Assembly (NCBI GenBank): GCA_019695295.1
Contig: JAIBAH010000029.1
Span: forward strand, 1 to 39,439
DNA: 39,439 nt
Origin: Bacteroidia bacterium
GTDB lineage: Bacteria > Bacteroidota > Bacteroidia > J057
Direction: 5' to 3'
The notes beneath the pieces are model-generated. The model was not told the DNA's origin, ran no database searches, and saw only the letters and a program-made list of their open reading frames with translations. Numbering within the stretch: position 1 is the first letter of the stretch; every line of letters begins with the position of its first letter. The translations under genes and the position numbers were made by a program. Shown in pieces: positions 11,795 through 39,439 of this stretch.

Positions 11795-13147
11795 TCAGGG
11801 ATTAACCAGTTCTCCGTTCTGAATCATCCTGTATATCGTAGATTTCCCTACATCGAGCTTTTGGGCAACCAACAGAACATTGTTGTCGTATTTTTCAAGA
11901 TAATACTGAATAATTCGCCTTTCGTATTCCCGTAGCGTAATCTCTTCCACCGGAAATAGACTCAAATCGTGGGAAGCATTAAAATTGATATCTTCCGGGT
12001 GAATGTACTGCTCATCCGACATGACGGCAGCCAGTTCAATGATGGCTTTCATTTCCCTCACATTTCCGGGATAAGGATACTTCATCAGTTTTTCTTTTGC
12101 CTGAGCGGAAATCTGAATTTTAGGTAATTTATTTTCCCTGCAAAATTCATCCAGAAAAAACTTGGCGAGCAGAAGAATATCATTTCCCCTTTCCCGCAGG
12201 GGCGGAAGTTCTACGGGAAGCCCCAGTAAACGATAAAATAAATCCTCCCTGAAGTTTCCTTTTTTTACTTCCTCCAAAAGATTTTTGTGAGTTGCTACGA
12301 TTACCCTCACATCAATTTTAACCGCGCCGTTTCCTCCAATCCGGGTTACTTCCCTTTCCTGAAGTACCCTGAGTATTTTGGATTGCAGGGACAACTCCAT
12401 CTCGCCGATTTCGTCCAGAAAAATCGTACCGCCACTGGCTTCCTCAAACTTACCGATTCTCCTGGCATTGGCTCCGGTAAATGCGCCTTTCTCATAGCCA
12501 AACAACTCGCTTTCCATTAATTCCCGGGGGATTGCGGCCATATTTACTGCCACAAAAGGCTGTTTTTTTCTTTCGGAATGATAATGGATAGACTTCGCAA
12601 TCAATTCTTTACCCGTTCCTGTTTCTCCGGTAATCGAAATATTGATATTGGTTTTTACGGCTTTCTCTATCAGTTTGAATACTTTTTCGATTGCAGGACT
12701 GCTGCCAATAATCGCATTCCGGAAGTCATATTTATGTCCGATTTCTTCTCTCAGATACTCAATTTCTCCCTTGAGAGAAAAATTTTCCCGTATCTTTATC
12801 ATCGTATTCCAGACTCTGTTGTTGGTATCTTCGTTTTTTACAATATAATCATAAGCCCCTTCCTTGAGTAATTCTACGGCCGTCCGGATATCTTCCTGAC
12901 CGGATATGATTACCACCTGAGTTTCAGGGCTGCTTTGCTTGATTTTTTTAAGTACCTCTCTGCCATTCAGGTCACCCAGTGTATAATCCAGAGTAACGAC
13001 CTGGGGTTTTTTGTGCAGCAAATTCAGACATTCCTTACCGGAAGAGAGCAGCGTCACTTCATAATCCGGGTTCAGAGAAAGATGGTAAGTCAGAATTTCG
13101 CCGTACCAGGGGTCATCTTCCACTACAAAAATCTTAAAAGGTGTCAT
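11795..13147 (-). CDS. sigma-54-dependent response regulator (NtrC/AtoC family)
   Basis: A 450-residue protein with the full NtrC layout. The receiver (1-120) has the acidic pair at 11-12, phospho-acceptor Asp54 (VTLDYTLGD), Ser82 and Lys104. The AAA+ domain has Walker A GETGTGKE (~174-181), the sigma-54 contact loop GAFTGA (221-226) and Walker [10 protein letters not shown] (~241-249). A C-terminal Fis-type helix-turn-helix follows (~405-450, with [16 protein letters not shown]). It should use ATP hydrolysis to activate sigma-54 RNA polymerase at distant promoters. No cognate kinase is directly adjacent: the nearest, at 14940, is two genes away and is PhoR-like, so this regulator is probably an orphan or has a partner elsewhere. 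I saw no convincing GG-N10-GC sigma-54 promoter in the window. Two CCATTCC direct repeats lie ~90-116 bases upstream of its start. Confidence 0.95.
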
Positions 13148-38172: not shown

Positions 38173-38745
38173 ATGGAAAATACAGGAAGAAAAGTCATTT
38201 TATATATCGCAATGAGCCTTGACGGATACATTGCCACTCCGGATGGGAACCTGGATTTTTTGTCTGTCGTGGAAAAAGAAGGGGAAGATTATGGGTATGC
38301 TACTTTTACAGATAGTGTGGATACGGTGATTCTTGGCAGAAAAACCTACGACAAAATCGTATCAATGGGAGTAGCGTCTTATCATCCGGATAAGAGGGTT
38401 TATGTGCTGACTCGTACGCCCAGAGAAGGTACGCTCAATGTACAATTTTATACTGAAGGGGTGAAAACGTTATTGAAAACTCTCCTTCAACAAAAAGGGG
38501 CGAATATTTATTGTGATGGCGGGGCTGAAACGGTGAGGCTTTTACTCGATGAAAACTTGATGGATGAGATGATTATTTCTGTAATCCCTGTGCTCCTGGG
38601 AGGTGGAATTTCCTTATTTTCGAAGGGGGGAGGCCACCATCATTTGCAGCTTATCGAAAGTAGGTCTTTTGAAAGGGGATTGGTGCAGCTTCGCTATCGG
38701 GTAGAGAAAAGGGGGATAAATTCCGTGCTCCCTACCGCTGAATAA
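38173..38745 (+). CDS. dihydrofolate reductase family / RibD C-terminal-like reductase
   Basis: A 190-residue protein of the DHFR/RibD-C superfamily, YwjB/YyaP-like. The ATG at 38173 starts 11 bases after the receptor stop; the frame is open 30 codons earlier inside the receptor gene but lacks family resemblance there. Features: ILYIAMSLDGYIATPDGNLDFL at the N-terminus, DTVILGRKTYDKI, YVLTRTPRE, ANIYCDGGAETVRLLL and an IISVIPVLLGGGISLF segment that fits NADPH-binding members. True FolA residues are not expected here, so a role in folate metabolism should not be assumed. Family members are often tied to antibiotic or pterin-like substrates. The last 14 bases overlap the convergent T9SS-domain remnant. 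Confidence 0.9.
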   Translation: MENTGRKVILYIAMSLDGYIATPDGNLDFLSVVEKEGEDYGYATFTDSVDTVILGRKTYDKIVSMGVASYHPDKRVYVLTRTPREGTLNVQFYTEGVKTLLKTLLQQKGANIYCDGGAETVRLLLDENLMDEMIISVIPVLLGGGISLFSKGGGHHHLQLIESRSFERGLVQLRYRVEKRGINSVLPTAE

Positions 38746-38881
38746 CAAACTTACCTGTTTCATGTCTTGTGTGTTTTAGGTTTTCCACCCGCCAAATATA
38801 CATTCCTTCGGGGAGATTTGCAAGGCTTAGCGTTTCTTTTTCCGACCTTAGTTCCCTGCTCAGCAGCAACCGATTACCCTG
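38732..38881 (-). pseudogene. orphan remnant of a T9SS type A sorting domain
   Basis: Minus-strand translation in the same frame as the Rpn-type gene, directly after its TAG stop (38882-38884), gives 49 residues and a TAG stop: GNRLLLSRELRSE, then LSLANLPEGMYIWRVENL and TGKFVIQR. This is a clear C-terminal half of a T9SS type A domain (xGRxLxxxxL...xxLPxGxYxxxV...GKFVxx). There is no start codon and no upstream secreted-protein gene, only the Rpn gene. I infer that a secreted-protein gene was truncated by insertion or deletion at this point. It is too short and lacks a start, so it is not called as a gene. Confidence 0.7.
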
Positions 38882-39439
38882 CTACTCTTTTATAATTTCC
38901 GCTAATTCTGCTTCGCTAATCTCAAAAAAAGCAGCTACATTCGCTTGGCTTTCCCCTTCGGATAACATTTTTAGGATTAGTTTTCTTTGCTTCTGGAAAA
39001 GATGTTCCTTTTGCCTGCGTTCTTCTTCTTTTTGCCTGCGTTCTTCTTCTTTTTGTCTGCGTTCTTCTTCGGCTATTTTTTGGTTTTCCTCTTTTTGTCT
39101 GCGTTCTTCTTCGGCTATTTCCTGTGCTTCGGTTAGCAGGGGAATGTATTTTTTTTCGGCGTCGAGGATTCCTTCGTCGTAGGCGGTTTCTACTACGCCC
39201 CGGATTTCGAGGTATTGCATACGGCTTAGCTGATAGGTCTGAAATTCCGGCTCGGATAAGGCGGCTATTTCTGCGATTTTCAACCCTTTGATGAAGATTT
39301 TGTCGCTTTTGAATATTTGTGGGATTTGTTCCATTTCTTCGAGGTGTTTCAGGTAATACAACCACTGTTCTTTCCGGTCTGAAAGTTCCGTTTCGGCTTT
39401 CTGGAAAACGGGGAGTTGTACGTATTTGAGAAAGAGTTT
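38882..39439 (-). CDS. Rpn-family (PDDEXK_2) recombination-promoting nuclease/putative transposase, C-terminal part
   Basis: 186 codons are visible and the frame runs off the right edge, so the nuclease core is missing. The visible part begins FLKYVQLPVFQKAETELSDRK, followed by WLYYLKHLEEMEQIPQ and IAALSEPEFQTYQLSRMQ, which is the diagnostic helical C-terminal section of Bacteroidota PDDEXK_2/Rpn proteins. It has a Glu/Arg/Lys-rich coiled coil (EERRQKE heptads) and a final helical MLSEGESQANVAAFFEISEAELAEII segment like the usual small HTH-like tail. Rpn proteins promote RecA-independent recombination and spread as mobile-like genes. A TTG codon at 39361 is in frame, but the frame continues upstream in family-like sequence. 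The stop is followed in frame by the T9SS remnant. Confidence 0.85.
   Translation of the reverse strand, partial: KLFLKYVQLPVFQKAETELSDRKEQWLYYLKHLEEMEQIPQIFKSDKIFIKGLKIAEIAALSEPEFQTYQLSRMQYLEIRGVVETAYDEGILDAEKKYIPLLTEAQEIAEEERRQKEENQKIAEEERRQKEEERRQKEEERRQKEHLFQKQRKLILKMLSEGESQANVAAFFEISEAELAEIIKE
39009..39125 (-). repeat. 21-bp tandem repeats encoding EERRQKE heptads
   Basis: Near-identical 21-bp units (plus-strand core GCCTGCGTTCTTCTTCTTT) start at 39013, 39034, 39055 and, after one diverged unit, 39097. They encode a perfect seven-residue coiled-coil heptad within the Rpn-type protein. Repeat number could change by slippage without breaking the frame. Confidence 0.75.

Follow-up and report, generated by a model that had tools for sequence, protein, structure and literature searches.

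Rpn proteins have non-specific nuclease activity and are associated with RecA-independent recombination (Kingston et al., 2017, PMC5350276). The rpn regions have variable ends without inverted repeats or target-site duplications, and rpn arrays arise by tandem duplication (Zhong et al., 2023, PMC10327210). These regions were reported to multiply by recombination or duplication and not by conventional transposition, and the repeats described in Rpn proteins have a 4-aa unit (PMC10327210). The rpn genes look mobile yet have no transposon ends, which makes their movement an open question. When elements integrate at tRNA 3′ ends, they leave the gene end duplicated. Among the papers listed in a literature search, none linked Rpn and T9SS.

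The Orphan Tail Behind the Rpn Gene

The window was the entire stretch of 39,439 nucleotides, that is, the whole of contig C46 from a Bacteroidia bacterium. Its right end fell inside an Rpn gene because this gene is a near-identical repeat that breaks the assembly. The features of the Rpn end of the window were as follows.

38882..39439, minus strand: final 185 codons of an Rpn (PD-(D/E)XK) nuclease gene that runs off the end of the contig (PF12784, 32.1 bits, above the cut-off of 27.4; 98–100% DNA identity with the copies on C86, C108, C18 and C217)
38987..39130, minus strand: heptad (RRQKEEE) repeat region of Rpn, variable in copy number among the genomic copies (unit count)
38884-38882, minus strand: Rpn stop codon TAG, read directly from the sequence and preceded by EIIKE
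38732..38881, minus strand: 49 orphan codons from the C-terminal part of a T9SS type A sorting domain, with their own stop, in frame behind Rpn (TIGR04183, 16.3 bits; DNA 87% identical to C180 and 82% to C194)
38734-38732, minus strand: the tail's own stop codon TAG (direct sequence reading)

The gene was firmly assigned to the Rpn family from its profile matches; the N-terminal half on C86 reached 174.4 bits for PF12784 and, against a cut-off of 52.1, 56.6 bits for TIGR01784. The 7-aa repeat is located in the C-terminal helix of Rpn, and its number varied between otherwise near-identical copies, with 4 units in C46, 5 in C18, 4 in C108 and 9 in C217.

The minus strand read ...EIIKE-TAG-QGNRLLLSRELRSEKETLSLANLPEGMYIWRVENLKHTRHETGKFVIQR-TAG, with the tail running from 38881 to 38732. 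The first-pass annotation had described the C-terminal half of a T9SS type A domain in frame after the Rpn stop, with no secreted-protein body ahead of it. Both observations were confirmed, the former by direct reading and by 82–87% DNA identity to other tails of the genome. The proposed alignment to TIGR04183 gave a match to positions 33–72 of 72 (E = 0.0071), with a score below the cut-off of 23. The match to Pfam PF18962 was likewise sub-threshold (E = 0.0051, 17.5 bits, cut-off 27); both scores were low because the tail is half a domain. With 16.3 bits, positions 33–72 only and no secreted body, the tail does not count as a T9SS type A cargo. The identity of the tail was certain from the DNA comparison and not from the family score. 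The tail matched C180 over 142 nt (87% identical, E 7.7e-45) and, over 114 nt, the tail of an intact T9SS cargo gene on C194 (82%, E 8.8e-27), which encodes 528 aa and scored 38.9 bits with TIGR04183.

The differences between the C46 and C180 tails were mainly silent (pN/pS 0.25, binomial p 0.004). Hence, the tail diverged while it was still part of a functional cargo gene, and its orphaning came later. The sequence comparison supports its origin as the end of a T9SS cargo gene that formerly worked, and in its present place the tail is most likely decaying, untranslated passenger DNA without a role in Rpn or secretion.

Copies of the Rpn Gene and the Shared Joint

The Rpn gene was a near-identical dispersed repeat with at least five 3′ ends and at least four 5′ ends, mostly at contig ends. 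Copies of this kind of Rpn were thus dispersed in the genome, in agreement with the earlier suggestion that the gene is mobile. The copies and their flanks are given below.

Rpn 3′ halves: C46 (window), C18, C108, C137 and C217
Rpn 5′ halves: C86, C180, C45 and C194
38863..38884, minus strand: Rpn–tail joint TAG (A/C)AGGGTAATC / GGTTGCTGCTGA, common to C46, C18 and C108
Tail before the Rpn promoter: an intact cargo gene in C194, ~160 nt in C180, ~98 nt in C86 and ~73 nt in C45
Remaining copies of the tail subtype: the end of a cargo gene where contig C153 stops, and 71 nt at C194:2237-2307

The identity across the joint was 92.7–97.6% among C46, C18 and C108. The tail extended for 150 nt behind Rpn in C46, 51 nt in C18 and 22 nt in C108, after which the sequences differed, and C137 and C217 had no tail behind Rpn beyond a few bases at most. 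All four 5′ halves were preceded by the end of a T9SS tail and then by the same TAGAGGGAAGTCC promoter region, and none of the four carried a broken cargo-gene body before that promoter. Site-specific insertion of Rpn into tails was ruled out on this ground. The genome contained at least 150 T9SS domains, among which the DNA subtype of this tail had seven copies. Five of the seven abutted Rpn, four directly before the promoter and one directly behind the gene. The region ends varied among the Rpn copies on both sides; an insertion sequence or conventional transposon has identical defined ends, but here the ends of each copy differed.

Several other observations were made on these tails. The pieces at C45:8190 and C194:2307 start at a near-equal tail position (nt 78–80), just behind the palindrome CCTTCCGGAAGG of intact tails. 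The T9SS domain at the contig end C153:3768-3993 contains an in-frame palindromic insert (CAAGGTAGTTGCAAGGCATGCCTTGCAACTACCTTG) that splits it. A long tandem repeat encoding RKPSAS units (~18-nt period) is located at C194:2377-3105, upstream of two T9SS cargo genes.

The same joint was found at three loci; therefore, the tail travels with Rpn and, taken alone, is no evidence of a cargo gene at the window locus. The shared joint, the variable ends, the intact TAG and a divergence of the coding type between the tail and its sister were observed directly. They are probably best explained by one joining event, after which the composite was copied with variable ends. A single illegitimate joining at a short AGGGT similarity would have placed the 3′ end of the multi-copy rpn before a T9SS cargo gene's final ~46 codons. 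Recombination would then have copied this composite elsewhere with variable ends, which would account for the 150, 51 or 22 nt of tail that follow Rpn and for the differing lengths of the tail of another cargo gene that precede it. The copying may have involved the nuclease activity of Rpn or ordinary repair. A joint could also spread by gene conversion among the repeats, with no transfer of entire copies, and we infer one event and not repeated conversion. In this explanation no copy is assembled across Rpn, the pairings of flanks are deduced, and the boundaries of similarity are fuzzy by a few nt.

An assembly chimera at a repeat is very unlikely: although the contig terminates inside Rpn, the joint is located 555 nt inside the contig and recurs, in diverged form, in two other contigs. 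Functional readthrough of the TAG, which would append the sorting tail to Rpn, finds some favour in the frame of the tail, and the in-frame placement is a single event with a 1-in-3 chance. The first-pass annotation had raised this suppression as unlikely, and it was contradicted by the copies, in which the tail was lost while the TAG stayed: the codon was kept in 5/5 copies, with the tail truncated in two and absent in two. Moreover, the C46 and C18 tails differed by ~3 nonsynonymous and 1 synonymous codon changes, only half a sorting domain is present, and the Rpn genes sampled elsewhere all lack a tail of this kind. Readthrough can practically be dismissed.

The Junction With RibD_C

The far side of the tail met a convergent gene, and the following features were needed to describe this junction.

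38713..38731, minus strand: short stretch of 3′ flank from the former cargo gene, GGGAGCACGGAATTTATCCC (38732-38713), which recurs behind the 71-nt tail piece at C194:2218-2237
38173..38745, plus strand: RibD_C / DHFR-like gene, convergent with Rpn (RibD_C, 63.1 bits; alignment with relatives)

The flank piece was 89% identical to its C194 counterpart over 37 nt. In the window, this flank breaks straight into the coding part of RibD_C, which gives the fragment a second joint there. The last ~8–10 codons of RibD_C (GINSVLPTAE) lie opposite the transferred 3′ flank and tail, in antisense, and in the alignment the RibD_C proteins of relatives stop short of this extension. Hence, the joint replaced the native end of RibD_C. 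Under the one-event explanation, the composite would have come to lie tail-to-tail with RibD_C in this way. Scattered cargo-gene ends can thus be read as fossils, and they can lengthen the coding sequence of a neighbour.

The first-pass annotation had taken the tail as what remained after Rpn inserted into, or replaced part of, a secreted-protein gene. That proposal stood insofar as the tail of a once functional cargo gene lies in frame behind Rpn, and it was weakened by the presence of the same joint at three loci. A gene broken at this locus was not borne out, for the four 5′ halves showed the end of a tail and no broken cargo body, and the C194 gene was intact. A resident T9SS cargo gene in the window, into which Rpn landed or whose body it replaced, with C18 and C108 as later copies, would account for the fact that no Rpn copy other than C46 has the complete tail together with 19 nt of the cargo 3′ flank. 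However, the flank runs into RibD_C through a joint of its own, no cargo body precedes any Rpn promoter except for the intact C194 gene, and the joint recurs at two further loci. We regard a resident gene as unlikely. With one joining event, C46 may still be the founder of the joint because it has the longest tail together with the 19 nt of flank.

Probable Flanks of One Rpn Copy

The Rpn overlap of C86 and C108 was identical at 126/126 nt, and the two contigs agreed at two diagnostic bases where C46 and C18 differ from them. Furthermore, a 24-nt direct repeat, GTTTTTTGTATGG(A/C)CGGAAAAATT, was found genome-wide only in C86 and C108 (within 2 mismatches). It is located ~131 nt before the front tail piece in C86 and ~149 nt behind the rear piece in C108. 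Because of the identical overlap with its diagnostic bases and the exclusive repeat, C86 and C108 very likely each carry one flank of a single Rpn copy, which no contig spans. The order along this copy would be, with fair confidence, repeat, filler, tail 53–150, Rpn, tail 1–22, filler, repeat. A pairing of C18 with C86, suggested by their complementary tail breakpoints, was ruled out since the diagnostic bases in the Rpn overlap differ.

No direct repeat was found within ~700 nt in the other flank pairs. The 24-nt repeat counts against the one-event explanation, given the published absence of target-site duplications, and if it were a target duplication it would depart from the published rpn picture. 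It may have another origin, given its distance outside the tail pieces.

The tails on the two sides could also have acted as a homology repeat, with tandem [tail–Rpn] units, or a circle of Rpn and one tail, re-integrating after being opened inside the tail. The 3′ part of the tail would then be expected before Rpn and the 5′ part behind it. The C86/C108 copy has this layout, with tail 53–150 before and 1–22 behind Rpn, and C18 stops at tail nt 51 where C86 starts at 53. In C217, 63 nt of Rpn interior (12845-12907, 98% identical) are located just behind the Rpn stop in the same orientation; this piece is likely the scar of a tandem Rpn copy, as would come from a tandem array, and tandem rpn arrays have been published (PMC10327210). 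Against this, the C86/C108 copy lacks tail 23–52, C18 and C86 belong to different copies by two diagnostic bases, and the 3′ half of the C46 tail with its flank differs from the tails before Rpn. The scheme is improbable. The broader idea that T9SS sorting-domain DNA, present in at least 150 places of such genomes, is a recombination substrate for rpn copying, so that copies spread with tails at both ends, is no less speculative. A single joining event followed by copying with variable ends is preferred.

Relatives and Other Bacteroidota

No tail was found next to an Rpn stop among the Rpn copies examined in other genomes of the family. The survey of Bacteroidota comprised 41 Rpn loci from named genomes, with 40 usable behind Rpn and 38 in front. 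No T9SS match was present within 300 nt behind Rpn (0/40), and a cargo gene ended ~200 nt before Rpn at 1/38 loci. The Rpn copies examined thus lacked such a tail behind them, in relatives as in other Bacteroidota, which spoke against the remnant as first stated. As far as sampled, the Rpn–tail arrangement is private to the Rpn lineage of this genome. In the congener G001, several Rpn copies have the first ~20 nt behind the stop in common (AATCGCTCAACATATTCATC-like) and diverge beyond that point.

The gene order around RibD_C was not conserved, and in G001 RibD_C was followed by an unrelated gene. The MiaB gene (C18) and the methyltransferase gene (C108) likewise had other neighbours in the family genomes. 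Empty Rpn sites were not found because the gene order around these three genes was not conserved.

Comparison With Known Systems

With T9SS type A sorting domains (TIGR04183 / PF18962), the tail shares the C-terminal 40 positions and DNA-level homology to intact domains of the genome. In contrast to them, it has no cargo body and no N-terminal half, and a stop codon is located ahead of it. By analogy, integration at tRNA 3′ ends likewise places a gene 3′ end beyond a unit that looks mobile, but the present case would differ in having no integrase, no fixed core site and variable ends.

The closest system was that of the Rpn / YhgA-like recombination-promoting nucleases (PF12784, TIGR01784, COG5464), which belong to the same protein family, are multi-copy, and have variable region ends and C-terminal charged repeats varying in number, as here (PMC10327210, PMC5350276). 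The genome differs from that description in that pieces of T9SS cargo genes are located on both sides of Rpn, a 24-nt direct repeat bounds one deduced copy, and the repeat unit is 7 aa, not 4 aa. The case agrees with the published rpn picture; what it adds is passenger DNA, from which the cut points can be read. A recent copy family with recognisable passenger DNA directly marks where each copy was cut and joined.
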